64,000 nucleotides of DNA from Cryobacterium melibiosiphilum (GTDB taxonomy: Bacteria > Actinomycetota > Actinomycetes > Actinomycetales > Microbacteriaceae), in assembly GCF_003602235.1 (NCBI RefSeq), contig NZ_QZVS01000095.1, positions 124,356 to 188,355 of the forward strand, in the 5' to 3' direction. The position numbers and the translations under genes are program-made. The notes below the pieces were generated by a model. That model was not told the origin of the DNA. It did not search any database and saw only the letters and a program-made list of their open reading frames with translations. The first letter of the stretch is position 1. Every line of letters begins with the position of its first letter. Shown here piece after piece: positions 19,478-44,120 of this stretch.

Positions 19478-21040
19478 GTGAGTGACATTGCGGCCGAATT
19501 GGCGCGGGTGCGCGAGGCCTTCGACAAACCCACCCTGCGCCTGCTGGACCGCAAGTGGGCTCCGTTCGTGCTCGCCGTCTTCAAGAGTTCCTTCAGCCGG
19601 GACCGCCGCAGCGTGCAGGCCGACCTTCTGCACACCCAGGTGGATGCCTACCTCGCCGACCTGCGCAGTGTCGGCAGCGAGGTGCCCGGCAAGAACGGCC
19701 GTGCCCTGTGCGTGCAGTGGATGAACGACCTCTGGCTGTACCGCGAAATGGGGGACACCAGCGCGGCCAAAGGTGGGAATACCAGCGGGAATACCAGCGA
19801 GGAATTCTACTCCCTCACCTCTCATGCCCTCGAAGCGCTGTTGCTGGTCGATGGGCTCGCCCGTGACCGTGCGCTGATCAGCGAGTCCCGCCTCACGACC
19901 ATCGTCGACACCGCGAGGCACCGCGCGACGCAGGCGAACCCGGATCGGCAGGAACGCATCCGTCGCCTCGACCAGGAGATCGCCGAGAAGCAGAGCGAAC
20001 GGGATCGACTGGATGCCGGCGGCGAGGTCGCGAGCGCCTCCAATGAGCAGATGCTCGAGGGCTACGCTAACCTCATCGACCTGATCAACCAGCTGCCGAG
20101 CGACTTCAAACGGGTCGAAGAGTCCGTCGCGGGCATGCATCGGCAGATCATCAACGACTTCCGCGGTGAGGAACGCCCGATCAGCGAGGTGCTCGACGAC
20201 TACCTCGCCAAGACGGATGCCCTCATGACCTCCACCAAGGAGGGCCGCGCCTTCGAGGGCGCCTTCGCCCTGCTGCGTAACGACACCCTCATGCGGGGGC
20301 TCAAGAACGACCTCGAAACGATCCTGCTGCATCCCTTCGCGCTCGAGCTGAGCGGCAGCGACCGCCGCAGCTTCATGGGCACCGTCGGCCTGATCCGCAA
20401 GGGCATCGACGACGTGCTCACCCAGCGCAACGGCCTCAGCACGACCCTGCGCGAACACATCGTCAACCACGACGTCGTGAAAGACCGCGAACTCGAGCGG
20501 ATGCTGCGGGACATCAACAAAGAACTGGCCGTCTGGATGCAGACGGCCGGCCCGCGCTCGACCGTCACCGCCGAGCTCATGCCGGGCACCCTCGACGTGG
20601 AACACCTGCAGGAACGGTTCTACGACCCGATGGCCCACCTCGCGCCGCCGGAGCTCGACGACGTGATGGGTGACGCGCCCGAACCGCCGAGCCTCGACGC
20701 GATGCGCCAGCAGGGCGGCCCGCTGCTCGCGGAGATGCGCGACGCCCTGGTGAGCGCTTTCAGCAGCGGGGATGCGGCATCCGTCGGTGCCGCGTTCAAC
20801 GCCCTCGAGGTAACACTGCGACGCCCGGTCGAGATCCTGGGCATGCTGCAGATCGCGACCCAGGTCGACGCGGTGCACCGGGCCGAGGCCGTGGAGAGCT
20901 TCGAGACCGTGCGGCCCGACGGCAGCGTGCGCAGCTTCACGGTGCCGCGCATCATGCTGACGGATGCCGAAACGGCCGCCCTGGCTGCGCTGCCCTACGG
21001 CGCCAGTGAGCCAGACCTGACTTTTGACCGGAATGAGTAG
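19478..21040 (+). CDS. jetA: Wadjet JetA-like protein (DUF3375), kleisin-type subunit
   Basis: A 520-residue DUF3375 protein ([26 protein letters not shown] near the start). In type I Wadjet systems JetA is the kleisin-like subunit that joins JetB and the SMC-like JetC into a DNA-loop-extruding condensin that recognises small circular DNA. The middle of the protein (~140-260) is rich in charged helices. A small GNTSGNTS duplication lies near residue 105. The GTG start at 19478 has a strong GGAAAGGA ribosome-binding site. It overlaps jetB by 8 bases, so the three genes form a tightly coupled operon. Confidence 0.88.
19775..19798. repeat. 12-bp tandem duplication in jetA
   Basis: Two exact copies of GGGAATACCAGC, in frame, encoding GNTSGNTS. 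Confidence 0.8.
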
Positions 21041-21782
21041 CAGCATGAGTGACACCGAAACCGATGACCGGACCGCAGGGGCCGGTGACACCTCCAGTGT
21101 TGAACGCGACCCGGCCAGCTTCTCGCTGTTCGAGGGCGATGAGGGCGGGCTCAGCATCGAGCAGCGTCGCACCCTCGTGCTGCTGCTGAAGTACCGCTAC
21201 ATTTCGGCGGCGCTGCAACCGGCCGAATGGCAGACCCTGCTGGCGTCGCAGAGTCTGCTGCGCTCGCGCCTGAACGATGTCTTCCTCGACCTGCACGTCG
21301 ACCTGCACTACGAGGTCGCCTTCAAACGCCAGGCCGTCGCCGAGGGAGGGGACCGGTTCCCCACGCTGCTGCACGATGTGGCGTACACGCGGGAGGAGAC
21401 AATCCTGCTCGTGCTGCTGCGGCAGCGGTTCCGCAGCGAGCGGGCCAGTGGCCAGGAGATCGTGCTCGTCGACCGCGACAACCTGGTCGAGAACGTGGCG
21501 CACTTTCGCCCGGAACACGCAACCGACCGCTCCGGCGACGCCCGCCGGGCCATGGCCGCCGTCGAGAGCCTGGCCAAGGCGCGGGTGTTGCTGAAAACCA
21601 GCGATGCCGACCGGTTTCGGGTGTCGGCCGTGATCGAGGTGCTGCTACCGGTCGAACGTCTGGGGGAGCTGCTCGAGTGGCTCGTCAGCCAGAACGACAG
21701 CACGCCCACCAACGAGAACACCCGCACCACCGACACCACGAGCACCGCCCTGCCCGCCATCTGGAGCCCCGCCCATGACTGA
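21033..21782 (+). CDS. jetB: Wadjet JetB-like protein (DUF4194), KITE-type subunit
   Basis: A DUF4194 protein of about 249 residues with winged-helix-like content ([32 protein letters not shown]). JetB/MksE proteins dimerise and bind the kleisin subunit of the condensin. The start is uncertain: ATG 21033 overlaps the jetA stop, ATG 21045 is possible, and the frame extends to TTG 21024. The C-terminal tail is Thr-rich (TTDTTSTA). Its last 8 bases overlap jetC, which supports translational coupling. Confidence 0.85.
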
Positions 21783-24700
21783 TTCGCCCCTCTTCTACAT
21801 TGACGGCTCGACCGAGGGCACCACGCAGTGGAAGGCCGAGTCCTTCCAGATGGTTAACTGGGGCGGCTTCCAGGGCCACCACGAGATCGCCTTCGCGCCG
21901 ACGGCAACACTGGTCTCCGGGGCGTCCGGAACCGGCAAGAGCAGCCTGCTCGACGCCTACCTCGCGCTCATGATGCCCTCCGACACCCCCTTCAACGGCG
22001 CCAGCAATGATGCCGGCTCCGGGCGCGCGCGCAGCGTGGACCAGCGCAACCTGATGACCTACCTCCGCGGCAAGACCGACTCGAGCCGCGAAGCCGGAAC
22101 CGGCGCGCTGCAGGACCAGGTCTTGCGCGGATCACAGGAGGCCACCTGGGGCGCGGTCGCGATGACGTTCATCGACGACAACAACCGCCGTTTCACGGTT
22201 TTGCGGGCCTACTTCGTGCCGCGCGGCGCGAGCAAGTTCGCCGACCTGTCGATGAAGATGGCGACCATCGACGGGCGCCTCGACCTGCGCGACCTCGCCG
22301 AGGTCACCGAGAGCCGCTTCGACAAGCGCGCCCTCAAGACCCGGTTTCCCGAGCTCGACATCTTCGACACCTATGCCGCGTTCGCGCAGACCCTCTACAC
22401 CCGGCTCGGGATCGGCGCCAACGGTGAGGGCGGCAAAGCCCTGCGCTTGCTCGCCCGCATCCAGGCCGGTCAGCAGGTCAAGACCGTTGACGGCCTCTAC
22501 AAGTCGATGGTGCTCGAAGAACCCGCCACCTTTGCCGCCGCCGACAAGGCCGTCGCGCACTTCGAAGACCTCGAGCGCTCCTACCGGGCCATGGTCACCG
22601 AGGCCCAGAAAGCGCAGGTGCTCGAACGCATCCCGGCCCTGCACCGCGACTTTCAGGCCGCCAGTCTGAAGGCCGACCTGATCGACACGTTCGGCGTGCA
22701 CCGCCCCGGCGACACCCCCTTCGTGCTGTGGACGCTGCTCACCGAACGCGCCCTGCTCGACGGCGCCGCCGACCTGAACGGTGCCGAGCGGCGCGGCAAC
22801 CTCGTCGAGCTCACCCGGGCCCGCGACGCCGAAACCGCTCTCAAGGCCCGCGTCGCCGCGGTGCAGCACCAGCAGCGTGACAACGGCGGTGACGTGCTCG
22901 CGAGCCTCGCCAACGACCTCGAGCAGCTGACCCACCAGCGCGACGACATCCGCGCCGAACGCGCCACCTTCGACAGCCGGATCAGCCTGCTCGAGACCGA
23001 GATCTCCGGTCAGCCCGAGTTTCTCGCCGCCCAAACCGCCGCGGCCGGCTTTCTCGGCACCTTCGCGCAGGCAGCGGATGCCCTCGACAGCGACCGCGCG
23101 ACCCTGCAGCGCACCGCGTATCCGGTCGAGGAACAGATCCGCACCCTCAAGCAGGAGCAGGCCTTCCTCGCCGGGCGCGCCAGCCTGGTGCCGCAGCACC
23201 TGCACAACGCGCGGCTGATGATCGCCGAGGCCGCCGGGATCCCCGCCGATGAGCTGCCCTTCGTGGCCGAACTCATCGACCTCGCGGCCGACGAGGAGCA
23301 GTGGCGCCAGGCGGCCGAGGTCACCCTCGCCTCCGTCGTGCGGGTGATGCTCGTCGACGAGACCAAACTCGCCGCGCTCAGCCAGGCCATCGACCCGCTG
23401 CGTATCCCGGTGCGCATCCACTTTGAAGGCGTCGCGCTGCGCGACTACGAACCGATCGCCGGTGATGCCCGCTACGTCTCCGGCAAGCTCACCTTCGTCG
23501 ACTCGCCGTTCAGCGGCTGGGTCCGGGAGCGCGTGCAGGCCGGCAACCTCGACGCGCTCTGCGTCGACACCCCCGCCGAGCTGGTCGGCGACGGCCCCCG
23601 AGTCACGCCGAGCGGGCAGACCCGCAACGGCGCCCGCGGCGCGCACGGCTGGAACCAGGACCAGAAGTCGATCATCGGATACTCCAGTCGGGCCCGGCTG
23701 GATGACATTGTCGCCGAGCTCGCCGAGCGCACGGCGACGGCGAATGCGGTGGCGGGGGAGGCATCCGCTGTCTCCGATCAGATCGGTGATCTGCGCGCTC
23801 GCAAGGCGGCCCACCAGTTCGTGGCGGATGCCGCTTGGCTCGCGATCGACGTGGCCGCCGCCGAGGCGAAAATCGCCGACAAGCAGGCAGAGCAGGAGCG
23901 CGTTCTCGCCGGCAGCGACGTGCTGCGTGCCCTGAAAGACGAGGAGGCGCGTCTGGTCGACGAGCTGGAGAGTGCCCAGAAGCTCAAGCACTCCACCGAT
24001 CAGCAGGCGGTGCGGCTCGGCGCCGAGCAGAGTGGAATCGTGGACGACCAGGACGTTGTCACCGATCGGCTCGACCGCATCGAACGGGACGAGACCGTCG
24101 TCTTGACGGCGGACCACGCCGCGCACCTCGACGCCCAGTTCGCCCTTGTCGGCGACCAGCACGACCTGGCCGCGTTTGCCGGCGGGGTGAAGCGGCTGCG
24201 GGAACGCCTGACGGAGCAGTCCGCGCAGGACCGCGGCGCCGCCACGAGCGCCCGCGATTCGCTGCTGCGCATCTTCGAGACGTTCCAGAGCCGCTGGCCC
24301 GACCCGAACATCGGGGTGGGCCTGGAGTCGTTCCCGAGCTACAACGACATCCTCGACGCCGTCTACACTCTCGGCCTGCACGAGCGGCGCCAGGAATGGA
24401 AGCGGCGCCTCGCAGCGTGGAGCGGCCAAGACCTCGTGCCGCTCGCCGGGGCGTTCACCACGGCGATCGAGGAGATCGAAGACCGCTTGCGGCCGATCAA
24501 CGAGATCCTCACGACGCTGCCGTTCGGCGCGGGCCGCGACCGACTGAAGATCGCGCTGCGCCGGCTGCACCGCGACGACGCGACCGCTTTTCGCCGGGAG
24601 CTCAAGCTGCTCTCCTCGGGCGCAACGGAACTCTTCACCGACGAACAGACCGAGAACCGCTTCACCCGGCTGCGGGCCTTCATGGCGCTCATTCGCAAGC

Positions 24701-25173
24701 CTGACGGCGGCGAGGTTCGACGTGATGCGCAGCGCGACCTGCTGCTCGACGTGCGCAAGCACGTCGAGATCACGGCCGTGCGCCTGACGCCCGAGGGCGT
24801 GGAGGTCAGTACCTATTCCTCGCTCGGCGGCAAGAGCGGTGGCGAATCGCAGGAGCTCGTGGCGTTCGTCGTGGGTGCTGCGCTGCGTTTCCAGCTCGGC
24901 GACGAGAGTCGCACCCGGCCGCGGTTCGCCCCGGTGTTCCTCGACGAGGGCTTCGTGAAGTCCGACGCCGAGTTCGCCGGTCGGGCCGTGGCGGCCTGGA
25001 AGGGGCTCGGGTTCCAGCTCATCGTCGGTGCCCCGCTCGACAAGGTCACCGCGCTCGAACCGCACATGGACCTCGTGCTGTCGATGACGAAGAACAACGC
25101 CACCGGCTACTCCTACATCACGCCGCTCTCCACCCCCGAGCCGAGCCCTGTGTCGACCCCCATTCACGCCTAG
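21775..25173 (+). CDS. jetC: Wadjet JetC-like SMC ATPase (SbcC/MukB type)
   Basis: A 1132-residue SMC-like ATPase. Walker A GASGTGKS is at residues 49-56. Two long coiled-coil regions (~250-480 and ~640-800) flank a hinge-like middle. The C-terminal head has the signature GGKSGGES (1018-1025) and Walker B FLDE (1055-1058). All ATPase motifs are intact, so the motor should work. JetC extrudes DNA loops; in a full Wadjet system JetD then cuts small circular DNA. Here no jetD follows: the TAG stop lies within a CTAG shared with the stop of the convergent dehydrogenase gene. Confidence 0.9.
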
Positions 25174-26331: not shown

Positions 26332-27024
26332 ATGACCGATCACAATTCCCTCCGGGCACCCATGCTCAAACGCAAGGTTCTCGCCGACTACGTTTACGAG
26401 GAGATCCTGTCGTCGCTGATCGACGGCCGCCGCGAACCGGCCGGCACCATCAGTATCGACGGATTGGCGAGGGAACTCAACGTGTCGCAGACGCCCGTTC
26501 GCGAAGCTCTGGCGAGGCTTGAGCACACCGGCATGGTGCGGCGCGTCGCACTCAAGGGCTACACCGTCGCGCCGCTGTCGACCGCCGCCGAACTCGCTCA
26601 GCTCGTGGATGCCCGCCTCGTCATTGAACCCACGAACGCGGAGTGGGCCTGCAGCCGTGCCACCGCCGAACTCTGCGATGCCCTGCGCGAAACCATTGAA
26701 CGCCTCGGTGCCTCGCACACCGGAGCGACGTACGCGGAATTTCGCGACTATTGGAAAGCCGACGAGGATTTTCACCGCATCATCGCCGAGAACGCCGACA
26801 ACCCGTTTGTGCTTGCCGCCTATAAGACCCTGGGCGGGCAGATCCAGCGGTTCAGGTACTTCGCCGGCATGGGCGTGACGGATGCCGAGAGCGCGATTCT
26901 CGAGCACACCGCCATTCTCCAGGCGTTCCTCGACCGCAAGCCCGAGCGGGCGCGGGAAGCCATGGTTGAGCACCTGCAGGGCGTCAAGTCGAGGTCGGTG
27001 CGGGACAGCGGCGGAACGGCGTAG
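26332..27024 (+). CDS. GntR-family regulator with FCD domain
   Basis: A 230-residue regulator. Residues ~15-80 hold the winged helix-turn-helix (LARELNVSQTPVREALARLE) and residues ~90-220 the all-helical FCD effector domain, with candidate metal or ligand residues in EDFHRIIAEN and LEHTAILQA. FCD regulators usually repress sugar-acid or organic-acid catabolic genes. The sugar-acid-type cluster starts 129 bases downstream on the same strand, so this is the likely pathway regulator. Confidence 0.85.
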   Translation: MTDHNSLRAPMLKRKVLADYVYEEILSSLIDGRREPAGTISIDGLARELNVSQTPVREALARLEHTGMVRRVALKGYTVAPLSTAAELAQLVDARLVIEPTNAEWACSRATAELCDALRETIERLGASHTGATYAEFRDYWKADEDFHRIIAENADNPFVLAAYKTLGGQIQRFRYFAGMGVTDAESAILEHTAILQAFLDRKPERAREAMVEHLQGVKSRSVRDSGGTA

Positions 27025-27111
27025 TTCCGGCGCAACCCCGGTGTGACGTTCTGCCGACGGCCGTTGGGCACCTCCAAGCCGTCGCTCAGATTTGACAAGC
27101 GTCTGTGAATC

Positions 27112-27138
27112 GTAGATCCTATAGGAAATACGATCTAC
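27112..27138. promoter_or_regulatory. Candidate operator for the GntR regulator
   Basis: GTAGATC (27112-27118) and GATCTAC (27132-27138) are perfect inverted arms, and the perfect palindrome TCCTATAGGA (27117-27126) lies between them. A TTGACA-like -35 element sits just upstream at 27092-27097, so a bound repressor would cover the promoter of the sugar-acid cluster. Confidence 0.5.
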
Positions 27139-27153
27139 ACGACGGAGTGATGT

Positions 27154-28149
27154 ATGCGCTACACAGCAGAAACCTGGCCCATCACTGCAGCACTGCTGCA
27201 GTTCCCCGGAACGGATGCCCAGGGCCGCACCGCCCAGCAGGCCGACGCGAGCGTCTGGGCCGAGGTCTTCACCGAGGTCAAGGACGCCGGCTTCGCCAAC
27301 GTCGACCTGTTCGATTCCTGGATTCGCCCGGGGGACCTGTCCTCTGCGCGGCTGGACGAGCTGAAGGCCACCGCGAGCAGCGTCGGCGTCGGCGCTCCTT
27401 CCATCTCCGCCATCCGTCGGAGCGTCATCGACGAGGCCAACGGGGAAGACAACCTCGCCTACAGCCACCGCACCCTCGACGCCGCCGCGCAGCTCGGCTG
27501 CGAGGTCGTCTCCTTCGGACTCCACCAGGCACTCACCGCCGAGCAGCAGAAGCAGCTGTGGTTCTGGACCGTCGAAGGCCACCACGACCCGGTCGGCGAC
27601 CCCGCGGTCTGGGGCAAGGCCGTCTCCCGACTCAGGGAACTCGGCGCCCACGCCGCCGAACTCGGTCTGCTCATGAGCCTCGAACTCTACGAGGACACCT
27701 ACCTCGGCACCGGCGATTCGGCCGTGCAGCTCGTTCAGGACATCGGCCTCACAAACGTCGGCCTCAACCCCGACATGGGAAACCTGGTGCGCCTGCACCG
27801 CCCGATCGAGGCCGTGCAGGAGATGATCGCCAAGACCGTCCCGTATGCCAACTACTGGCACGTGAAGAACTACAGCCGCGACGAAGATGTTGCCCGCGGC
27901 CAGTTCACCGCCGTTCCGGCGCCGCTCGAGACCGGCATCATCAGCTACCGGGAAGCCTTCCGCACCGCGCTGTCCTTCGGCTTCCAGGGCATCATCTGCA
28001 CCGAACACTACGGCGGCGACGGTCTCAGCGTGTCGGCGACCAACCAGGCCTACCTGCGCGAGAAGATCCTCCCGAAGACCGAGAACTACGTGCTCGGCAC
28101 CCCGCTCGTGGCCCAGGGCCGCCAGACGCCGACCGCGGTCGCCGCGTAG
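27154..28149 (+). CDS. Sugar phosphate isomerase/epimerase-family TIM-barrel protein
   Basis: A 331-residue AP-endonuclease-2-like TIM barrel. Four likely metal ligands are visible: Glu in LMSLELYED, Asp in NPDMGN, His in YWHVKNY and Glu in ICTEHYGG. Family members include isomerases, epimerases and decarboxylases, among them 3-oxo-isoapionate decarboxylase (OiaC), which yields L-erythrulose. As the first gene of a cluster whose other enzymes fit tetrulose metabolism, a decarboxylase or isomerase feeding erythrulose is my inference; a true isomerase cannot be excluded. A GGAG ribosome-binding site precedes ATG 27154. Confidence 0.72.
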   Translation: MRYTAETWPITAALLQFPGTDAQGRTAQQADASVWAEVFTEVKDAGFANVDLFDSWIRPGDLSSARLDELKATASSVGVGAPSISAIRRSVIDEANGEDNLAYSHRTLDAAAQLGCEVVSFGLHQALTAEQQKQLWFWTVEGHHDPVGDPAVWGKAVSRLRELGAHAAELGLLMSLELYEDTYLGTGDSAVQLVQDIGLTNVGLNPDMGNLVRLHRPIEAVQEMIAKTVPYANYWHVKNYSRDEDVARGQFTAVPAPLETGIISYREAFRTALSFGFQGIICTEHYGGDGLSVSATNQAYLREKILPKTENYVLGTPLVAQGRQTPTAVAA

Positions 28150-28164
28150 GCCTTCGCAACACCC

Positions 28165-28192
28165 GGTGGGGCCGCACCAACGCGGCCCCACC
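28165..28192 (+). terminator. Hairpin between first and second cluster genes
   Basis: GGTGGGGCCGC and GCGGCCCCACC form a perfect 11-base-pair stem with a 6-base loop, 16 bases after the stop codon. No T-tract follows; instead a CCCCACGGCC-type short repeat runs to about 28222. It may be a partial terminator or an RNA-stability element that lowers expression of the downstream genes. Confidence 0.55.
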
Positions 28193-28293
28193 CCACGGCC
28201 TTACCCCACGGCCCCACCCCACGTCACCGCGCCCTCGTCGTCGCCCACATTCGTGTGCGCGGCCGCCGGGCCCAACGGATTCAATGAGGAACC

Positions 28294-30084
28294 ATGACAC
28301 GGATATTTGACGATCCCGCAGCATTCGCCGACGAGGCACTCGCGGGCTTTGTCGCCGCCAACCGCCGCTACGTGGCCCGCGTCGACGGCGGCGTCGTGCG
28401 CGCCACGGAAATGAACCCCAACCAGGTCGCCCTTGTCATCGGCGGCGGTTCGGGGCACTATCCGGCGTTTGCCGGACTGGTCGGCCAGGGTCTCGCCGCC
28501 GGCTCGGCCTGCGGCAACATGTTCGCATCCCCGGCGGCCGCACAGATCTACCGAGTCGCCAAGGCCGCCCACGCCGGGGGAGGCGTTCTGCTCAGCTACG
28601 GCAACTATGCCGGGGACGTGCTGCACTTCGGCCAGGCCCAGGACCGACTCAACGCGGAGGGAATCCGCACTCGCACCGTGGTCGTCACTGATGACACTGC
28701 CAGCGCATCGCTGGCCGAGATCGACAAGCGCCGCGGAATTGCGGGGGATCTCACGGTTTTCAAGATCGCCGGCGCGGCAGCGGATGCCGGACTCGACCTC
28801 GCCGAGGTCGAGCGCCTGGCCCGCAAGGCCAACCTCGCGACGCGTTCCCTCGGGGTGGCCTTTGACGGCTGCACCCTGCCGGGCGCGACCGAACCCCTCT
28901 TCAGTGTTCCCGCCGGCCAGATGTCGCTTGGGCTGGGCATCCACGGCGAACCGGGAATCTCCGACCACGACCTGCCCACCGCGAGCGAACTCGCCGAACT
29001 CCTCGTCGGCCGGCTCCTGGCCGAAGAACCCGCGGGAGCCGGACACCGCGTCGTCCCCATCGTCAACGGGCTCGGCACGGTCAAGTACGACGAACTCTTT
29101 CTGCTGTTCGGAAAGATCGAAACCCTGCTCCAGCAGGCCGGGCTCGAGGTCGTCGAACCCGAGTGCGGAGAACTCGTCACCAGCCTCGACATGTCCGGCC
29201 TCTCGCTCACCCTGTTCTGGGTCGACGACGAGCTTCTGAGCCTCTGGACGGCGCCGGCCGACACCCCCGCCTTCCGCAGGGGCAACGCCGTGGCCCGTCC
29301 GCAGCGGGTCATCGAGGAGTCCGCCCACGACGACCGCACCGACACCCCGCCGGCGACGATCGCCGCGGCCCGCCTCGGCTCGGGAGCCGTCACCCTGCTG
29401 CAGGCCGTGCAGTCCGTCGTCGTGGAACACGAACAGGAACTTGGCCGCCTCGATGCGGTCGCCGGTGACGGCGACCATGGAATCGGGATGCGCCGTGGCG
29501 TCGATGCTGCCGTGCAGGCAGCAAACGACGCCAGCCGCGACGGCGCCGGTGTCGATCAGGTGCTCACCGCGGCCGGGGAGGCCTGGGCGGAAAAGGCCGG
29601 TGGTACCTCCGGCGCCCTGTGGGGGGCCGCACTGTGCGCTTCGGGCGGAGCCCTCGGCAATCGGGAGTCCTATGGGTCTGCCGACGCCCTTGGTGTCGCC
29701 GAGGCGTTCAGCGCCGCGATCATCGACCTGGGCAAGGCCGAACTCGGCGACAAGACCATGGTCGACGCCTTGCTGCCCTATGTCGCGACGTTCACGGCCG
29801 AGAGCCAGGCCGAGGCATCCGTCGCCGATGTGTTGACTGCGGCGGCCACGGCAGCCGTGGGCGCCGCCGCCGACACCGCCGCGCTCAGCCCCCGCCGCGG
29901 ACGCGCCCGGCCGCTCGCCGAACGGAGCATCGGACACCCCGATCCGGGAGCCGTGTCATTCGGCTTGATCGCCGCGGGCGTGGCCCGGGCTTACACAGAT
30001 TTCACCGCTACCGATTTCACAGCTACCGATTTCACAGCTACAGATTTCACAGCACGATCAAGAGCAGAGGACGTGACAGCATGA
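28294..30084 (+). CDS. DhaK-DhaL fusion kinase, candidate erythrulose kinase
   Basis: A 596-residue ATP-dependent ketose kinase. The DhaK half (1-330) has [10 protein letters not shown] and the substrate-binding His217 in GIHGEPG, which forms a hemiaminal with the ketose. The DhaL half (~370-570) has the Mg-ATP-binding GDGDHG near 391-396. Two-domain DhaK-DhaL kinases act on dihydroxyacetone or, as LerK and DerK of Mycobacterium, on erythrulose. The neighbouring RpiB- and TIM-like genes favour erythrulose, as inference. The C-terminus carries a four-copy repeat (DFTAT). Its stop overlaps the next gene by 4 bases (ATGA). Confidence 0.85.
29998..30057. repeat. 15-bp tandem repeat at the 3' end of the kinase gene
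   Basis: Four copies of GATTTCACAGCTACC (first and last slightly changed), in frame, adding a threonine-rich DFTAT tail of about 20 residues beyond the DhaL fold. Confidence 0.88.
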
Positions 30085-30548
30085 GCAAGAAATGGCGCAT
30101 CGTCATCGGAAACGACGAAGCCGGGGTTGAATTCAAGACCGCGCTGAAACAACTATTGGAAGCGGATGACCGCGTCGAGTCCGTCACCGACGTCGGGGTC
30201 GGCGAGAAGGACACCACGGCATACCCGCACATTGCCGTCACCGCGGCCCGCAAGGTTGCTGCGGGGGAGTTCGACCGCGCCCTGTTGATCTGCGGCACCG
30301 GAATGGGAGTAGCCATCTCGGCCAACAAGGTGCCCGGCATTCGTGCCGTCACCGCACACGACAGCTATTCCATCGAGCGTTCCGTGCTCAGCAACAACGC
30401 CCAGGTCCTCACCCTCGGCCAGCGTGTGATTGGCCTCGAACTGGCCAAGAAGCTGGTCACGGAGTGGCTCGGCTACCGGTTCGACGACAGTTCCGCCTCG
30501 GCCGACAAGGTCGCGGCGATCGCATCCTACGAAGTGAAAGAGAACTAA
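30081..30548 (+). CDS. RpiB/LacAB-family isomerase, candidate D-erythrulose-4-phosphate isomerase
   Basis: A 155-residue RpiB-fold isomerase. The catalytic-type Cys71 is in [13 protein letters not shown], with His93 in [10 protein letters not shown] and the conserved [15 protein letters not shown]. The usual RpiB GCDHAG motif reads GNDEAG here, so a His is replaced by Glu, which argues against simple ribose-5-phosphate isomerase activity. Next to an erythrulose-type kinase and a TIM paralogue it fits DerI, which converts D-erythrulose 4-phosphate to D-erythrose 4-phosphate. ATG 30081 overlaps the kinase stop codon. Confidence 0.8.
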
Positions 30549-30552
30549 CACC

Positions 30553-31503
30553 ATGACGCACACCATCGCAATCGTCGGATCCGGCTACATGGGCGGCGGC
30601 ATCGCCCAGGTGCTCGCCCTTGCCGGCAACCACGTCTATCTGTCCGACGTCTCGCTCGACGTGACCGAGAAGAACTACCAGCGCCTCATCGACGAGTCGA
30701 AGGACTTCGTTGCCGCCGGACTGTTCCCAGAAGGCTCCACGGAGATTCTCAAGACCAACCTGCACGTCGCCGCCACCGTCGAGGAGGCCGTCGCCAATGC
30801 CGACTTCATCGAAGAAGCGGTGCCCGAGGTGCTCGCGATCAAGCACGACATCCTCGCCCGAATCAGCGGCGCGGCCCGTGCCGACGCCATCATCGGCTCC
30901 AACACCTCGACCATCTCGATCGGGGACATGGCCACCGCCGTCACCAATCCCGAACGCTTCCTCGGCGTGCACTTCTCCAACCCGTCACCCTTCATCCCGG
31001 GCGTCGAGGTTATCCCGCACGCCGGCACCGCCGCCGACGTCGTCGACCGCGCCCGCGCAATCGTGCACTCCACCGGCAAGCAGACCGCCGTGGTGAAGGA
31101 CGTCACCGGGTTCGTGCTGAACCGCCTGCAGTACGCCCTCTTCCACGAGGCCACCCAGTTGGTCGAAGAGGGCGTCGCGACTCCCGACGACATCGACACC
31201 CTGGTGCGCACGACCTTCGGTTTTCGTCTGCCGATCTTCGGACCGTTCGCGATCGCCGATATGGCCGGCCTCGACGTGTACAACTTCTGCTACAAGTCGC
31301 TGCAGACCGGTTTCCCGGAACGTTTCGCAACGCCGAAGATTCTTTCCGACCTCGTCGACGCCGGCAAGCTCGGCACCAAGTCCGGCGCGGGATTCCTCGA
31401 TGTGCCCGCGGAGCGCACGGCCGACCTGATCGCCTACCGCAACAAGGCCTACGTGGCGATGCAGAAGCTCATCGACGACCTCGGCCCGGCGCCGCTGCAC
31501 TAG
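30553..31503 (+). CDS. 3-hydroxyacyl-CoA dehydrogenase-like oxidoreductase
   Basis: A 316-residue protein of the 3-hydroxyacyl-CoA dehydrogenase fold: NAD motif VGSGYMGGGIA (residues 8-18), His140 and Glu152 as the catalytic pair in GVHFSNPSPF and VEVIPH, and a C-terminal all-helical domain. The family also includes L-gulonate 3-dehydrogenase and carnitine dehydrogenase, which oxidise free 3-hydroxy acids without CoA. Between a tetrulose kinase/isomerase set and a GntP permease, oxidation of a sugar acid at C3 is the better guess than beta-oxidation. It starts 4 bases after the RpiB-like gene. Confidence 0.75.
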   Translation: MTHTIAIVGSGYMGGGIAQVLALAGNHVYLSDVSLDVTEKNYQRLIDESKDFVAAGLFPEGSTEILKTNLHVAATVEEAVANADFIEEAVPEVLAIKHDILARISGAARADAIIGSNTSTISIGDMATAVTNPERFLGVHFSNPSPFIPGVEVIPHAGTAADVVDRARAIVHSTGKQTAVVKDVTGFVLNRLQYALFHEATQLVEEGVATPDDIDTLVRTTFGFRLPIFGPFAIADMAGLDVYNFCYKSLQTGFPERFATPKILSDLVDAGKLGTKSGAGFLDVPAERTADLIAYRNKAYVAMQKLIDDLGPAPLH

Positions 31504-31528
31504 CTCACCACCGTCAGGAGCCCAGACC

Positions 31529-32317
31529 GTGCCAGCATCCCGCGCCGCCGAGACCGCGCATCCGCTCTGCTACGTCGGAGTCAGCACCAAGATGTACCTG
31601 GGCTACCAGGCGAGTCTGGACTGGCTCACGGCCGTGCACGGCATTGTGGCGGCTCGGTCTCCGTTGCCCCGCGGCCTCACCGTTTTCGTCGCACCGTCGT
31701 TCCCCATTTTGGAAAGCGCGCGCCGAATTCTGGCCGGCAGCGGGGTAGTTCTGGGCGCGCAAGACTGCGGCACGGCGGGTGGGGCACTCACCGGAGAGGT
31801 AAGCCCGGCCCTCTTGGCGGAAATGGGAGTGGAGCTGGTCGAAATCGGCCATGCCGAGCGCCGCCGACTGTTCGGCGAAACGGATGCGGTGGTGGCCGAG
31901 AAGACGGCGGCCGCCGCCCTGGCCGGACTGACCCCGCTACTGTGCGTGGGCGAGACGGTGCGTGGCAGCCCCGCCGCTGCTGCCCGTTTCTGCTGGGAGC
32001 AGGTCACCGCCGCACTCGGCGCGAGCGTGCCGCCCGAGCGCGTTGTCGTGGCCTATGAACCGGTCTGGGCCATCGGCGCCGCCATTCCGGCAGACCCCGA
32101 CTATGTGAACGATGTCGTCGCCCGCCTGCGCGAGCTGCTGGACCAGCCCGAGCGGGCGGGCCGCGCCCGCATCATCTACGGCGGCAGCGCGGGGCCGGGC
32201 CTGCTTCCGCGGCTCGAGAGCGTGGATGGCCTGTTTCTCGGCCGATTCGCCCACGACCCGGCCGGATTCGGCCGGGTGCTCGACGAGGCCATACTCCGCG
32301 CCAGCCTGCAGCCCTGA
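31529..32317 (+). CDS. Triosephosphate isomerase paralogue, candidate L-erythrulose-1-phosphate isomerase
   Basis: A 262-residue TIM-barrel isomerase with the full catalytic triad: Lys21 in STKMY, His108 in EIGHAER and Glu177 in AYEPVWAIG. Two signatures of housekeeping TpiA are changed: the asparagine of the N-terminal NWKM motif is replaced by STKM, and the mobile loop 6 (usually AIGTGK) reads AIGAAIPAD. Such divergent paralogues in tetritol pathways (LerI) interconvert L-erythrulose 1-phosphate and D-erythrulose 4-phosphate. GTG 31529 follows a CAGGAG ribosome-binding site. A housekeeping role is unlikely, given the neighbours. Confidence 0.8.
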   Translation: MPASRAAETAHPLCYVGVSTKMYLGYQASLDWLTAVHGIVAARSPLPRGLTVFVAPSFPILESARRILAGSGVVLGAQDCGTAGGALTGEVSPALLAEMGVELVEIGHAERRRLFGETDAVVAEKTAAAALAGLTPLLCVGETVRGSPAAAARFCWEQVTAALGASVPPERVVVAYEPVWAIGAAIPADPDYVNDVVARLRELLDQPERAGRARIIYGGSAGPGLLPRLESVDGLFLGRFAHDPAGFGRVLDEAILRASLQP

Positions 32318-32431
32318 CCTGCATCTGCCCACCGATCTGCCCACCGATCTGTCTCGCTCCCTCGAATGACCGGCGCCAGCTCGCTGCCGCTGTTTCCCAT
32401 GAATCAATGACGTTTCGTAAGGATAAAATCC

Positions 32432-33829
32432 ATGCTCCATCTGTCGACGGCGGCTGAGCTCGCCCTCCCCATTCCCGCGTTGCTCAGCATCGCCATTGGC
32501 GCGGTGGTCGTGCTCTTGGTCTTGATCATCAAGGTGCGCATGCACGCCTTCTTCGCGCTCATCATCGTCAGCATCGTGACGGCCGTCGTGGCCGGAGTGA
32601 GCGCCGACGAGCTCATCGACACCCTCGTCGGGCCGTTCGGACGGACCCTGGGAAATGTCGCATTGCTGGTCGGGTTCGGTGCCGTTCTGGGCCGCATCGT
32701 CGAGACCTCTGGCGGCGCCCAGGTTCTCGCCGACAGCCTGCTGCGCAAATTCGGCGAGAAGCGAGCGCCGCTCGCACTGTCTGTCGCCTCCCTGCTGTTC
32801 GGCTTCCCGATCTTCCTCGACGCCGGGTTCCTGGTCATGCTGCCGATCATCTACACCGTGGCCCGCCGCCTCGGCGGTGGACTGCTGCTCTACGCCCTTC
32901 CGGCCGCTGGCGCCTTCCTGATGATGCACGCCATCGTCCCGCCTCATCCGGGTCCGGTCGCTGCGGCAGGGATCATCGGTGCCGATGTCGGTCTCGTCCT
33001 GATGGTCGCGCTGCTCGTCGGACTCCCAACCTGGTACGTCGCCGGCTACCGGCTTGCGCTCGTGCTCGCCAAGCGGCACCCCGGCATCGTCGTTCCCGAG
33101 TTGCTGGGGCTTCCTCCCAAGAACGTCGTGAACCCGCCGAAATTCGGTATCGTCCTGCTCGTCCTCCTGCTGCCCTTGGTACTCATCTTCATGAACACCG
33201 GCCTCTCCACCCTGATCGCCACCGGCACCGTGGGGGAGGACCAGCTCTGGGCGCAGGTTCTCATCTTCATCGGCAACACCCCGATCGCGCTGCTGCTGTC
33301 GACTCTGCTCGCCATGTACCTCCTCGTGATTCGCCGCACCCGCAGTTCCATCGGCGGCGCCCTGGAAGACCTCGTCGACGATGCCCTCGCTCCGGTCTGC
33401 TCGATCATCCTCATCACCGGTGCCGGCGGAATGTTCGGCGGCGTGTTGACGGCAACCGGAATCGGCGGGGCGATGGCCGAGAGCCTCGACGCGATCGGGC
33501 TCCCGCTCATCCTCGCGGGATTCCTCGTGGCCGTCATCATGCGTGTCGCCCAGGGCTCGGCGACGGTGGCCGGAACCACGGCAGCCGGCCTGATGGCCCC
33601 CGCGATCCTGGCGTCGGGCGAAACCAGCCCGATCGGACTCGCCTGCATCACCGTCGCGATCGTTGCGGGCGCCATCACGTTCTCGCACGTCAATGACTCC
33701 GGCTTCTGGCTGGTCAGCCGATTCCTCGGTCTCAGCACGTCGCTCGCGTTGAAGACCTGGAGTGTCATCGCGACGGCGATCGGTTTCATGGCCTTCGGCC
33801 TGGTGTGGATTCTCTACAGCTTCGTCTAG
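32432..33829 (+). CDS. GntP-family permease
   Basis: A 465-residue membrane protein with about 12-14 hydrophobic segments and the GntP-family features GFPIFLDAGFLVMLPI and HAIVPPHPGP. GntP proteins are proton symporters for gluconate and related sugar acids, so this is the likely uptake system of the cluster and suggests that the substrate is an acid rather than a neutral polyol. An AAGGAT ribosome-binding site precedes ATG 32432. The preceding 114 bases hold a short 12-base direct repeat after the isomerase gene. Confidence 0.87.
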   Translation: MLHLSTAAELALPIPALLSIAIGAVVVLLVLIIKVRMHAFFALIIVSIVTAVVAGVSADELIDTLVGPFGRTLGNVALLVGFGAVLGRIVETSGGAQVLADSLLRKFGEKRAPLALSVASLLFGFPIFLDAGFLVMLPIIYTVARRLGGGLLLYALPAAGAFLMMHAIVPPHPGPVAAAGIIGADVGLVLMVALLVGLPTWYVAGYRLALVLAKRHPGIVVPELLGLPPKNVVNPPKFGIVLLVLLLPLVLIFMNTGLSTLIATGTVGEDQLWAQVLIFIGNTPIALLLSTLLAMYLLVIRRTRSSIGGALEDLVDDALAPVCSIILITGAGGMFGGVLTATGIGGAMAESLDAIGLPLILAGFLVAVIMRVAQGSATVAGTTAAGLMAPAILASGETSPIGLACITVAIVAGAITFSHVNDSGFWLVSRFLGLSTSLALKTWSVIATAIGFMAFGLVWILYSFV

Positions 33830-33921
33830 GTGTCTTCGTCTGAGCGTCGTCATCTGAGCGGCGTCATCTGAGCGTCGTCGCAGTCCTCACAGCCACCACC
33901 AACACGAACCAGGGAAACTCT

Positions 33922-34710
33922 ATGACCACCACCGAAACACTCCCCACGCCCTTTCCGACCGAACGCACCGTCGTCGTTACGGGGGCGGCCTCGGTCCGCG
34001 GCATCGGCCGGGCCACGGCCGACAGGCTGGCTGGCCTGGGCTGGTCCGTCGCCATCGTCGACATCAACGCCGAGGCGGCGCGGGCGGCAGCGGCCGACAT
34101 CGCCCTGCGCCACAGCGTCCCGGCCATCGGGGTGGGCGCAGACATCGCGAGTGAGGCATCCGTTGACGCCGCAGTCGCGCAAATTGAGACGTCGCTGGCC
34201 CCCATCGTTGCGCTCGTGAACCTCGCGGGCATCAGCTCACCGACCGAGTTCATGGATGAAACGGTCGCCGGCTGGGAGAGGATCTTCTCGGTGAATATGA
34301 CGGGAACGTTCATTGTTACGCAGCGGGTACTGCGCGGCATGATTCAACGCCGCCTCGGCCGCATCGTCAGCGCGTCGTCGATCTCCGCCCAGCGTGGCGG
34401 CGGCACCTTCTCCAAGGTCGCCTACAGCGCGTCGAAGGCCGGAATCATCGGTTTCACGCGCGGGCTGGCTCGGGAAATGGGCCAGCACGGCATCACGGTG
34501 AACTGCGTGTCGCCCGGCCCGGTGGACACCGACATCATGGGCGGCACTCTGACCGATGAGCGCAAGAACGACCTGTCCGCCGACACCCTCATGGGTCGAG
34601 TCGGCACCGTAACCGACATCGCCGCCCTGATTGCCTTTCTGGTCGGAGAGGATGCCGGCTACATCACCGCCGCGACGTACGACATCAATGGAGGCCTGCA
34701 GATCTCCTGA
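33922..34710 (+). CDS. Short-chain dehydrogenase/reductase
   Basis: A 262-residue classical SDR: cofactor motif TGAASVRGIGRA (residues 20-31), NLAG, catalytic Ser in SASSIS and Tyr168-x-x-x-Lys172 in YSASK, and PGPVDTDIMGG. It is the last gene of the cluster and could oxidise the incoming substrate or reduce a keto intermediate. Short imperfect repeats of CGTCATCTGAG fill the 92-base gap after the permease gene. Confidence 0.82.
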   Translation: MTTTETLPTPFPTERTVVVTGAASVRGIGRATADRLAGLGWSVAIVDINAEAARAAAADIALRHSVPAIGVGADIASEASVDAAVAQIETSLAPIVALVNLAGISSPTEFMDETVAGWERIFSVNMTGTFIVTQRVLRGMIQRRLGRIVSASSISAQRGGGTFSKVAYSASKAGIIGFTRGLAREMGQHGITVNCVSPGPVDTDIMGGTLTDERKNDLSADTLMGRVGTVTDIAALIAFLVGEDAGYITAATYDINGGLQIS

Positions 34711-38359: not shown

Positions 38360-40723
38360 ATGTCTGAAGAACCGACCAACCCGACCGTCGACCTGCCCAC
38401 TGACCTGCCCACTGACCTGCCCGACCTGCCCGACCTGCCCGACCTGACCGACGCGAACATCGAGGTCACCCACCCCAAGTCCTGGGCGGCCGGGGTTCCC
38501 GGTGTCGTGCACTCCATGAAGCCGGCACTGGCGCAGATGGGGCCGGGGCGCAGCTTCAAGACCTTACTGGCGTTGAACCAGAAAGACGGTTTCGACTGCA
38601 TGAGCTGCGCGTGGCCAGATCCGGCCCACCGCAAGGCCTTCGAGTTCTGTGAAAACGGAGCGAAGGCGGTGACCTGGGAGGCGACGCCGGTGACCGTGCC
38701 TCGGAGCTTCTGGGCGCAGCATCCGCTCAGTGAGCTCGCGGACAAGTCGGAGTACTGGCTGGGCATGCAGGGTCGGCTCGTGGAACCGGTGTACAAGCCC
38801 GCCGGCGAAGACCATTACCGGCCGATCGAGTGGAGCGAGGCGTTCGACGTCATCGCCACGGCGCTCGGTCAGCTCGACAGCCCGAACGAGGCCTGCTTCT
38901 ACACGAGCGGGCGGGCATCGAACGAGGCCGCGTTCGCCTACCAGCTGTTCGTGCGGGCGTTCGGCACCAACAACCTGCCGGACTGCTCCAATATGTGTCA
39001 CGAATCCACCGGTTGGGCGATGGGCCAGACCCTCGGCATCGGCAAGAGCACTATCAGTTACGACGACTTCGCCCTGGCCGACCTGATCATCATCATGGGC
39101 CAGAACCCCGGCACCAACCATCCGCGCATGCTGACCGCCCTCGAAGAGGCCAAGGCCAACGGGGCCGAGATCGTGGCGGTGAACCCGCTGCCCGAGGCTG
39201 GCCTGCGCCGATACAAGAACCCGCAGACGGTGCGCGGAGTGCTGGGCCACGGCACCGACATCGCCGACCAGTTCGTGCAAGTTCGCATCGGCGGCGACAT
39301 GGCCCTGCTGCAGGCGGTCTGCAAACGGGTGCTCGACGCCGAAGCGGCCAACCCGGGCACCGTGCTCGACCACGCTTTTCTCGACGAGCACTGCCTCGGA
39401 CTCGAGGAACTGCGTGAGCACCTCGCCGAACTCGACGAAGAGGCTGTGCTCGCCGCAACCGGGCTGCGGGTGCAGGTCATCGACGAGCTCGCCGCCCGCT
39501 ATCTCAAGGCCGAAAAGGTCATCATCACCTGGGCTATGGGGCTCACGCAGCAGAAGAAGGGCGTCGCGACGATCAAGGAGATCGTCAACCTGCTGCTGCT
39601 GCGGGGAAACATCGGCAAGCCCGGTGCCGGCGCCTCGCCCATTCGCGGGCACAGCAACGTTCAGGGCGACCGCACCATGGGAATCTGGGAGCAGATGCCG
39701 CCCCGGTTCCTCGACGCCCTCGCGGCCGAGTTCCACTTCGACCCACCCCGCGAGCACGGGCTCGACGCGGTCGACAGCGTACGGGCCATGCGCGACGGAA
39801 AGATCAGGGTCTGGCTGGGCCTCGGCGGTAATTTCGTCGCCGCCGTGTCCGACACCGCCGTCGTCGAGGCCTCTGTGCGCCGCACCGCGCTGTCGGTGCA
39901 GATTTCCACCAAGCTCAACCGATCGCACGTCGTCACGGGTGAGGCCGCGCTGATCTTGCCGACGCTGGGCCGCACCGAGGTCGACCGCCAGATCAGCGGT
40001 GAACAGTTCGTGTCGGTCGAGGACTCGGTCTGCGCCGTGCACGCCTCGCGGGGCACGGTCGAACCGGTATCGTCGAACCTCCTCTCCGAAGTCGCCATCA
40101 TTTCCCGCCTGGCCCGCACGGTTCTCGCCGGCCGGGACCCGGCCGCCGGGGGCGGTATCGACTGGGCGGGGTTCGAGGCCGACTACGACCTCATTCGAGG
40201 GCACATCTCCCGCGTGGTGAGCGGATGCGAGAACTATAACGAACGCATCCGTCACGACGGCGGGTTTGTGCTCGCGAACGGGCCGCGGGATTCCCGAACG
40301 TTCACCACCCCGACCGGAAAGGCCCATCTCACGGTGAATCAGCTCGAGCACATCGAGCTTCCCGCCGGGCGGCTGCTGCTCCAGACGCTGCGCTCCCACG
40401 ACCAGTTCAACACCACGATCTACGGCAACGACGACCGCTACCGCGGTATCAAGAAGGGCCGGCACGTGGTCTTCATCAACAAGCATGACCTGGTCACGCT
40501 CGGATTCGCCGACGGCGACCACGTCGACGTGCACAGCGAGTTCAGCGACCAGGTCGACCGGGTGCTGCGGGGCTACCGGCTCGTCGAGTATCCCACCCCC
40601 CGCGGATGCGCCGCCGCCTATTTTCCCGAGGCCAACGTGCTCGTGCCCCTGGACAGCGTCGCCGAGGGCAGCAACACCCCGGTCTCGAAGGCGGTCATCA
40701 TCCGCCTCGAGCGTGCCGCTTGA
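38360..40723 (+). CDS. FdhF/YdeP-family molybdopterin oxidoreductase
   Basis: A 787-residue member of the formate-dehydrogenase-alpha-like (YdeP) group that binds bis-molybdopterin guanine dinucleotide. Cys-x2-Cys in GFDCMSCAWPDP and a further Cys after it could bind an iron-sulfur cluster; DCSNMCHEST probably holds the molybdenum ligand; IIIMGQNPGTNHP and ASPIRGHSNVQGDRTMG are cofactor-binding. The electron partner and substrate are unknown, and no fdhD or small subunit is adjacent. The N-terminus has a Leu-Pro-Asp repeat encoded by 12- and 9-base duplications. ATG 38360 is preferred; ATG 38348 is possible. Confidence 0.82.
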   Translation: MSEEPTNPTVDLPTDLPTDLPDLPDLPDLTDANIEVTHPKSWAAGVPGVVHSMKPALAQMGPGRSFKTLLALNQKDGFDCMSCAWPDPAHRKAFEFCENGAKAVTWEATPVTVPRSFWAQHPLSELADKSEYWLGMQGRLVEPVYKPAGEDHYRPIEWSEAFDVIATALGQLDSPNEACFYTSGRASNEAAFAYQLFVRAFGTNNLPDCSNMCHESTGWAMGQTLGIGKSTISYDDFALADLIIIMGQNPGTNHPRMLTALEEAKANGAEIVAVNPLPEAGLRRYKNPQTVRGVLGHGTDIADQFVQVRIGGDMALLQAVCKRVLDAEAANPGTVLDHAFLDEHCLGLEELREHLAELDEEAVLAATGLRVQVIDELAARYLKAEKVIITWAMGLTQQKKGVATIKEIVNLLLLRGNIGKPGAGASPIRGHSNVQGDRTMGIWEQMPPRFLDALAAEFHFDPPREHGLDAVDSVRAMRDGKIRVWLGLGGNFVAAVSDTAVVEASVRRTALSVQISTKLNRSHVVTGEAALILPTLGRTEVDRQISGEQFVSVEDSVCAVHASRGTVEPVSSNLLSEVAIISRLARTVLAGRDPAAGGGIDWAGFEADYDLIRGHISRVVSGCENYNERIRHDGGFVLANGPRDSRTFTTPTGKAHLTVNQLEHIELPAGRLLLQTLRSHDQFNTTIYGNDDRYRGIKKGRHVVFINKHDLVTLGFADGDHVDVHSEFSDQVDRVLRGYRLVEYPTPRGCAAAYFPEANVLVPLDSVAEGSNTPVSKAVIIRLERAA
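38390..38449. repeat. 12-bp and 9-bp tandem repeats in molybdoenzyme gene
   Basis: Two copies of GACCTGCCCACT are followed by three copies of GACCTGCCC and one degenerate copy. They encode the DLPT/DLP repeats in the disordered N-terminus. Confidence 0.88.
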
Positions 40724-44060: not shown

Positions 44061-44120
44061 GATCTAGCGGGCGGGGATCTAGCGGGCGGGGATCTAGCGG
44101 GCGGGGATCTAGCGGGCGGG
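44061..44120. repeat. 15-bp quadruple repeat across a stop codon
   Basis: Four exact copies of GATCTAGCGGGCGGG. The copy at 44106-44120 contains the stop codon and last codons of the minus-strand 3-hydroxyacyl-CoA dehydrogenase gene; the other three lie downstream and each repeats the in-frame stop. Confidence 0.92.

Follow-up and report, generated by a model that had tools for sequence, protein, structure and literature searches.

Genes and features of the locus

In a stretch of 64,000 nucleotides from Cryobacterium melibiosiphilum (hereafter the window), part of a 4.7-Mb genome in 97 contigs, eight intact genes lie on the + strand between positions 26332 and 34710, and we interpret them as a probable operon for the breakdown of a sugar acid. 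A preliminary description had named eight same-strand gene families at this place, and direct reading together with a Pfam scan found all of them present, intact and in that orientation, with the Pfam assignments holding. Its designation "hydroxyacid-type dehydrogenase" stands in part: the protein is a dehydrogenase, and its type is that of the 3-hydroxyacyl-CoA-dehydrogenase family, not 6PGDH/LtnD.

The first gene (26332..27024, +) encodes a GntR-FCD transcriptional regulator (Pfam GntR and FCD), the probable repressor of the operon. Downstream of it lie TTGACA (27092..27097, +), on its sequence the probable -35 element of the operon promoter, and a conserved putative operator (27109..27134, +) in which the inverted repeat ATCGTA-N14-TACGAT surrounds the palindrome TCCTATAGGA (27117-27126). 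The second gene (27154..28149, +; PF01261, AP_endonuc_2) specifies a xylose-isomerase-like TIM barrel, which we term Dec and propose as a metal-dependent 3-keto-pentonate decarboxylase. It is followed by a fused DhaK-DhaL kinase (28294..30084, +; Dak1 and Dak2), proposed as a LerK-like L-erythrulose 1-kinase, whose gene overlaps by 4 bp that of an RpiB-like isomerase (30081..30548, +; LacAB_rpiB, the family scan having been run without the first four codons). The dehydrogenase, termed HCDH here (30553..31503, +; 3HCDH_N, PF02737, and 3HCDH, PF00725), is a putative NAD-dependent sugar-acid 3-dehydrogenase. The last three genes encode a triosephosphate isomerase-like (TIM-like) isomerase with a GTG start (31529..32317, +; PF00121), a GntP-family permease (32432..33829, +; PF02447, above the TIGR00791 cut-off), which is a candidate sugar-acid importer, and a short-chain dehydrogenase/reductase (SDR) oxidoreductase (33922..34710, +; PF13561) of possibly accessory role.

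Two side observations concern these genes. The C-terminus of the kinase carries added TDFTA units, encoded by a tandem repeat (29998-30053), and further in-frame short tandem repeats occur in the window at 38390-38452, 51006-51067 and 56488-56527, the periods of all four being 9, 12, 15 or 18 bases. A second 3HCDH-family stretch of the window (44112-44957, -) is 35% identical to HCDH.

Recurrence of the cluster and of its operator

Scanning 84,980 species genomes for peptide patterns of Dec yielded 283 relatives, the best 80 of which, the named loci, were used for counts of neighbours within 8 kb, with identity floors of 45% for HCDH, 48% for the SDR and 40% for the beta-HAD and isocitrate-dehydrogenase types. 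Around Dec, DhaKL was present in 79 of these loci, RpiB in 76, HCDH in 75, a GntR relative in 74, the TIM-like isomerase in 72 and an SDR in 69; contig ends cut the loci behind the DhaKL miss, all four RpiB misses, four of the five HCDH misses and four of the eight TIM misses. The closest named matches of Dec, at 89% identity, are in Cryobacterium lactosi and C. gelidum; in the latter (L003, 13997-16449) a pair made up of a beta-HAD and an acid-sugar kinase (SBD_N/NBD_C) adjoins the Dec cluster. The distant locus L094, which shares only the class with the window, has GntR, Dec, HCDH, GntP, DhaKL, RpiB and TIM in a different order. Chance association of the cluster core is excluded.

The cluster is at the same time accessory: with this genome included, Dec is present in 4/57 of the genus (E 1e-40), 65/249 of the family (E 1e-60) and 4/396 of a phylum sample (E 1e-40). 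HCDH, in turn, occurs in 52 of the 249 Microbacteriaceae genomes (E 1e-85), and Dec accompanies it in 48 of these 52 as against 17 of the 197 genomes that lack HCDH (Fisher test, 5e-32). The two genes are also linked physically: Dec lies no more than 6 kb away at 46 of the 55 HCDH places, at 36 of which the left ends are less than 1150 bases apart, and L117 and L120 show a 4-base overlap between HCDH and Dec. The 20 kb fetched for each of the Dec-HCDH loci L117, L120 and L140 contain no kinase match.

We also considered 43 further Dec places, namely 33 Microbacteriaceae regions, three other genome regions, six plasmid records (those examined of 94 with Dec) and the window; the family regions, 35 besides the window, had been picked for identity spread, not at random, from 73 Dec places in 65 genomes, and two of them, L096 and L097, were excluded because they repeat the contigs of L002 and L003. 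The dehydrogenase near Dec is here HCDH in 19, PdxA-type in 12, beta-HAD in three, isocitrate-dehydrogenase type in three and absent in six. Over both samples an acid-oxidising dehydrogenase of one of these four families adjoins 112 of 123 Dec places, and HCDH and PdxA stand by one Dec in 0/123; a beta-HAD is present in addition to HCDH in 5/80 named loci. The PdxA version has the order GntR-PdxA-TctCBA-Dec-DhaKL on plasmids of Sinorhizobium, Shinella and Pararhizobium, and GntR-Dec-DhaKL-PdxA-TctCBA on a Paracoccus plasmid.

The transporters of Dec clusters are of acid type, being GntP, MFS or TctABC; in the named loci GntP was counted in six and an MFS permease in 67, and the GntP protein of L094 is 63% identical to that of the window. 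The SDR is the weakest member of the cluster, and its place in the core may be uncertain: no SDR lies within 8 kb in 11/80 named loci, including the six that have the GntP layout of the window (L002, L007, L013, L014, L027, L030), and its absence from these six suggests that the window SDR is perhaps outside the core.

The palindrome TCCTATAGGA recurs upstream of Dec in 76/80 named loci exactly and in 78/80 with one mismatch, and TTGAC[AT] precedes it by no more than 45 bases in 74 of the 76 that have it. Upstream of GntR it is found exactly in 45 of 74 named loci and with one mismatch in 61; at the other Dec places the corresponding counts are 15/43 and, with up to one mismatch, 19/43. It occurs in clusters of the HCDH type (such as L093, L112 and L126) and of the PdxA type (L119, L123, L136, L138, L141), and in 6 of 32 other places an exact copy lies upstream of the kinase, where the kinase begins its own operon or gene run. 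Only one site within one mismatch of ATCCTATAGGAAA exists in the 4.7-Mb genome. Exact copies of the 13-base site number 40 in the 249 family genomes and are spread over 37 of them (reversed control, 0 matches); 27 copies are directly upstream of Dec, three within 12 kb of Dec and ten elsewhere, and 32 of the 37 genomes also have Dec. On the + strand of the cluster a sigma-70 scan predicted no promoter, though TTGACA precedes the operator. Such conservation at the promoter points to a dedicated operator, to which this GntR protein would bind.

The regions around all ten sites far from Dec were examined. In two genomes (L193, L194) the operator adjoins SDR genes, which favours the SDR as a member of the regulon; at three sites (L195, L199, L201) no clear target gene lies nearby. 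In genome G606 (L203, 6990-12459) the same operator accompanies a succession of genes for a GntR protein 48% identical to that of the window, PdxA, an MFS permease, an amidohydrolase that most resembles L-fuconolactonase (73 bits against a cut-off of 400) and a kinase that comes closest to D-threonate kinase (93 bits against 450); together these genes may form an acid-sugar operon controlled by a sister regulator.

A proposed route from a pentonate to erythrose-4-phosphate

In HCDH, S119, H140, E152 and N190 are invariant across 19 aligned relatives, nearly all of which also have the glycine-rich NAD motif; we take these residues to be the catalytic Ser, His, Glu and Asn of 3HCDH dehydrogenases. 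The HCDH, PdxA, beta-HAD and isocitrate-dehydrogenase families oxidise a hydroxyl of hydroxy acids, commonly the beta hydroxyl, and since one or another of them accompanies Dec, this suggests that the dehydrogenase partner of Dec produces a 3-keto acid. Dec itself has a solved homologue, PDB 5TNV (E 3.5e-92), a member of the same family entitled "AP endonuclease, family protein 2", a title that holds no substrate or reaction. Dec shares its site E177/D207/H236/E284 with candidates for OiaC, the decarboxylase of apionate loci.

The kinase and the two isomerases are distinct at the sequence level from an ordinary dihydroxyacetone kinase, triosephosphate isomerase and RpiB; a match to those enzymes would have spoken against the preliminary description. 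Against the equivalog models the kinase reaches 344 bits with TIGR02361 (glycerone kinase; cut-off 575), the TIM-like protein 96.6 with TIGR00419 (tim; 130.6) and the RpiB-like protein 115.9 with TIGR01120 (rpiB; 138.65), while paralogues, namely two DhaK-DhaL pairs, a tpiA and another RpiB, lie elsewhere in the genome. The kinase scores 737 against a cut-off of 492 for the PRK14479 family, and the RpiB-like protein passes TIGR02133 (191 against 168), as does the genome's other RpiB (184), which likewise falls below the TIGR01120 cut-off (92.5). On these grounds a housekeeping assignment of the three proteins was rejected, and so was plain dihydroxyacetone metabolism, in which the RpiB-like protein would also be left unexplained. 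The best PDB match of the TIM-like protein is 3S6D, a putative triosephosphate isomerase, and the second is 11EF, an L-erythrulose-1-phosphate isomerase.

In trees that were midpoint-rooted and have long branches, the TIM-like protein of the window pairs with that of L002 in a group of 29 rows, distinct from the supported group that four housekeeping triosephosphate isomerases form (both 100/99). The TIM, RpiB and kinase proteins of several Dec clusters interleave in the trees with those of loci encoding PGDH_C, the dehydrogenase-type protein of apionate loci (below), with the qualification that the bootstrap of the RpiB tree is unsettled, that this tree was built without the genome's other RpiB, and that the kinase tree was built without one of the two other DhaK genes. 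This interleaving suggests that the Dec and PGDH_C routes probably make the same tetrulose. LerK, LerI and DerI, co-expressed with a tetritol dehydrogenase, supplied erythrose-4-phosphate from L-threitol and erythritol in E. coli (PMC10733421).

We thus propose, with a probability of about 0.6, that the locus is a GntR-FCD-controlled catabolic operon that converts a linear C5 sugar acid (an aldopentonate) through erythrulose to erythrose-4-phosphate. GntP would import the aldopentonate, HCDH would oxidise its C3 hydroxyl with NAD, and Dec, with a divalent metal bound, would remove CO2 from the resulting 3-keto acid to yield erythrulose, most probably L-erythrulose. The kinase would then form L-erythrulose-1-phosphate, which the TIM-like isomerase would convert to D-erythrulose-4-phosphate and the RpiB-like isomerase to D-erythrose-4-phosphate, entering the pentose phosphate pathway. 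The general scheme of the preliminary description, in which a sugar acid is oxidised and decarboxylated to a tetrulose that a kinase and two isomerases carry to erythrose-4-phosphate, gains comparative support from the recurrence of the cluster and from its shared downstream module. Gene content, recurrence, the linkage of HCDH and Dec, the operator and the separation from the genome's paralogues and from the apionate enzymes are computed directly; the catalytic steps are what we infer, as are the number of carbons, the stereochemistry and the identity of the substrate.

As the C4 configuration of the acid would become that of erythrulose, a step of the LerI type points to an L-pentonate. L-gulonate 3-dehydrogenase prefers L-3-hydroxyacids; if HCDH has the same preference, L-arabinonate or L-ribonate would be expected, and otherwise L-xylonate or L-lyxonate. 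The breakdown of vitamin C yields L-xylonate, L-lyxonate and 2-oxo-L-threo-pentonate (PMC11066805, PMC6225978). The neighbours of Dec point to no particular substrate; lactonase-type (SGL) genes lie near only 2/43 other Dec places. A D-2-hydroxyacid dehydrogenase stands near Dec in 10/80 named loci, and L004 and L111 contain FMN hydroxyacid dehydrogenases; speculatively, these enzymes would fit an inversion of such acids at C2. Curtobacterium is a genus of the Microbacteriaceae. Actinobacterial isolates that include it were enriched on L-erythrulose (PMC12780249), so that L-erythrulose is usable in this phylum, a fact that says nothing on the cluster itself.

Several observations weigh against the proposed route or its specificity. 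The RpiB-like protein scores 160.9 bits with the DerI model NF051858 (D-erythrulose-4-phosphate isomerase) and misses the cut-off of 240, which two rhizobial references pass (256-258), although it stands well above the genome's other RpiB (59); in the trees the TIM-like protein falls outside the rhizobial LerI reference group, and the kinase sits in a Dec-only clade. The palindrome is absent in exact form from 28/43 other Dec places and at one mismatch from 24/43, and it is missing by either measure at all four alphaproteobacterial Dec places. The operator also stands beside genes outside the pathway. In G606 (L200/L203) it precedes PdxA, with the D-threonate-kinase-like gene downstream; in two genera (L196, L198) it adjoins alpha-L-fucosidase-family genes; in L197, from the same genus as L196, 16 bases separate it from the aldo/keto reductase gene that follows; and in the 1.3-Mb genome of L202 it lies just upstream of a sugar-acid-dehydratase-like gene of the enolase superfamily, whose NCBIfam scores are below the cut-offs. 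Given such neighbours, a different acid could act as inducer; the site may be shared by sister regulators for other sugar acids, and its presence is no proof of a C5 substrate. Finally, PdxA-type enzymes commonly release CO2, and PdxA-type partners might decarboxylate alone.

Alternative readings and related systems

This last point bears on an alternative that we regard as improbable, in which Dec is a ketose 3-epimerase: the 3-keto acid formed by HCDH or PdxA would lose CO2 spontaneously or in the dehydrogenase, and Dec would turn D-erythrulose into L-erythrulose for the kinase. Among annotated PDB entries the ketose 3-epimerases are closest to the Dec profile, which scores D-psicose 3-epimerase (35.5 bits) about as high as the best OiaC candidate (37.4; range over 13 candidates, 6-37); this counts against a decarboxylase. 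The co-occurrence of the CO2-releasing PdxA type with Dec fits an epimerase too, and EryC is a precedent for an erythrulose-1-phosphate epimerase. Nevertheless, the Dec profile gives a relative of EryC just 1.4 bits as against up to 37 for OiaC candidates, the D-x-x-N and H-x-K motifs are common to Dec and the OiaC candidates, and the Dec-HCDH pair occurs at three loci where the fetched 20 kb hold no kinase match.

A C4 substrate is decidedly unlikely. Were threonate or erythronate the acid, HCDH and Dec would lead to dihydroxyacetone, and the kinase and the TIM-like protein would be a dihydroxyacetone kinase and a triosephosphate isomerase. The DhaK-DhaL type of the kinase, the shared operator before PdxA in G606 with its distant D-threonate kinase relative, and the beta-HAD and acid-sugar kinase pair that adjoins the C. 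gelidum cluster are all in keeping with it. However, it leaves RpiB without a role in spite of its presence near Dec in nearly all named loci, and the kinase and TIM-like protein fall short of the glycerone kinase and tim cut-offs in a genome that has two other DhaK-DhaL pairs and a tpiA; relatives of the kinase, TIM and RpiB proteins, moreover, serve the PGDH_C loci.

The D-apionate pathway was the route that the preliminary description had offered by way of OiaC. Catabolism of D-apionate through ApnO and OiaC was reportedly described by Carter and colleagues in 2018. That pathway and the one proposed here would have in common the conversion of a C5 acid to a 3-oxo acid, a decarboxylase of the AP_endonuc_2 type, L-erythrulose, and a kinase with TIM-like and RpiB-like isomerases; they differ in that a 3HCDH-type enzyme stands here in place of the PGDH_C oxidoisomerase, in the separate subfamily of Dec and in the operator. 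In Rhizobium phaseoli (L175) a gene annotated in RefSeq as OiaX has as neighbours an acid-sugar kinase, TIM, RpiB and a "phosphogluconate dehydrogenase C-terminal domain" protein, which we take to be ApnO; the PGDH_C protein of L163 has weak matches to ketol-acid reductoisomerase models, in line with an oxidoisomerase. An OiaC candidate is present in 13 of 14 PGDH_C loci, directly adjoining in 12 and about 3 kb off in L164, and eight of the 14 have DhaKL and RpiB, seven TIM.

No match to PGDH_C (PF16896, ApnO-type) was found in the C. melibiosiphilum genome, although 46/199 family genomes have one, and Dec is just 22% identical to an OiaC candidate; the ApnO/OiaC route, for which these two results give no support, was rejected for this locus. 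Neither OiaX (RuBisCO-like) nor OiaK (DUF1537) is among the eight genes, the rest of the genome having been no search target for them. A variant of the same pathway, with HCDH in place of ApnO and Dec in place of OiaC, is very improbable. The downstream module and the acid-type transporters are alike, and Dec and the OiaC candidate are distant homologues over the barrel (hhalign probability 98), but the Dec sequence gives 27.7 bits with the OiaC-candidate profile, whose own members score at least 327. The C3 hydroxyl of apionate is tertiary and so beyond a 3-dehydrogenase, in G558 a PGDH_C set adjoins a Dec set and the two have separate kinases and separate isomerases, and in apionate-type loci the palindrome precedes 0/12 PGDH_C genes tested and 0/13 OiaC candidates.

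A polyol pathway for erythritol or threitol, with the SDR as entry enzyme and HCDH and Dec in side roles, has as slight a likelihood: the kinase and the two isomerases make up the trio known from tetritol catabolism, and the SDR matches the GolD/DthD model below its cut-off (151 against 286 bits), but the transporters are of acid type, HCDH and Dec are the most tightly linked pair, and no SDR lies within 8 kb at the loci noted above, all six with GntP included.

The proposed pentonate operon is best called a new entry into the known erythrulose-phosphate module, distinct from the known apionate pathway. With tetritol catabolism through LerK, LerI and DerI (PMC10733421) it would share the kinase and two isomerases; here an acid permease, HCDH and Dec would feed the module, and no tetritol dehydrogenase is assigned. 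The source organism of these enzymes is Mycolicibacterium smegmatis (PMC12780249). For the two upstream steps there is a parallel: L-gulonate 3-dehydrogenase (CRYL1, of the 3HCDH family) gives 3-dehydro-L-gulonate, which the decarboxylase C11orf54 converts to L-xylulose, and in rotifers the dehydrogenase and decarboxylase domains are fused (PMC12435205). Both pairs would join C3 oxidation of an aldonate by a 3HCDH-family enzyme to loss of CO2, giving a ketose one carbon shorter, and this logic, applied to a C5 acid, leads to erythrulose; the decarboxylase folds, DUF1907 there and PF01261 here, are unrelated, and a C5 acid and bacterial catabolism are proposed here.

Operons for acid sugars of the PdxA type (D-threonate, with a DUF1537 kinase and PdxA2) resemble the cluster in the related GntR and operator of G606 and in the replacement of HCDH by PdxA in some Dec clusters. 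They differ in that the Pfam scan found no acid-sugar kinase (SBD_N/NBD_C) among the eight genes of the window, where decarboxylation would come before phosphorylation.

A literature search that drew mostly on titles and the opening lines of abstracts and did not reach two key papers turned up no account of this gene set. It is tempting to generalise, with a confidence that falls somewhat short of even odds, to a widespread unrecognised route in which a 3-dehydrogenase of the 3HCDH, PdxA, beta-HAD or isocitrate-dehydrogenase type and a new family of metal-dependent 3-keto-aldonate decarboxylases (that of 5TNV) would take a linear L-pentonate, with L-arabinonate, L-xylonate and L-lyxonate as candidates, to L-erythrulose and erythrose-4-phosphate, under a GntR-TCCTATAGGA regulon of its own and parallel to the apionate route. 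If so, a function would be found for an orphan enzyme family whose structure is already solved, and the erythrulose-phosphate module would become a hub with several independent sugar-acid entries, at which four dehydrogenase families are interchangeable. It would also account for an accessory cluster of many Arthrobacter, some Cryobacterium and other Microbacteriaceae, and for the PdxA version on the plasmids of Sinorhizobium, Shinella, Pararhizobium and Paracoccus. The operator opens the inducer, and hence the substrate, to direct testing.

Upstream of the cluster, the window also carries Wadjet-type defence genes. Downstream of these, on the opposite strand, lies a zinc-type oxidoreductase gene, JetD having been no search target; the defence genes themselves are jetA, jetB and jetC (19478-25173, +), with PADLOC scores of 593, 363 and 1353 bits.

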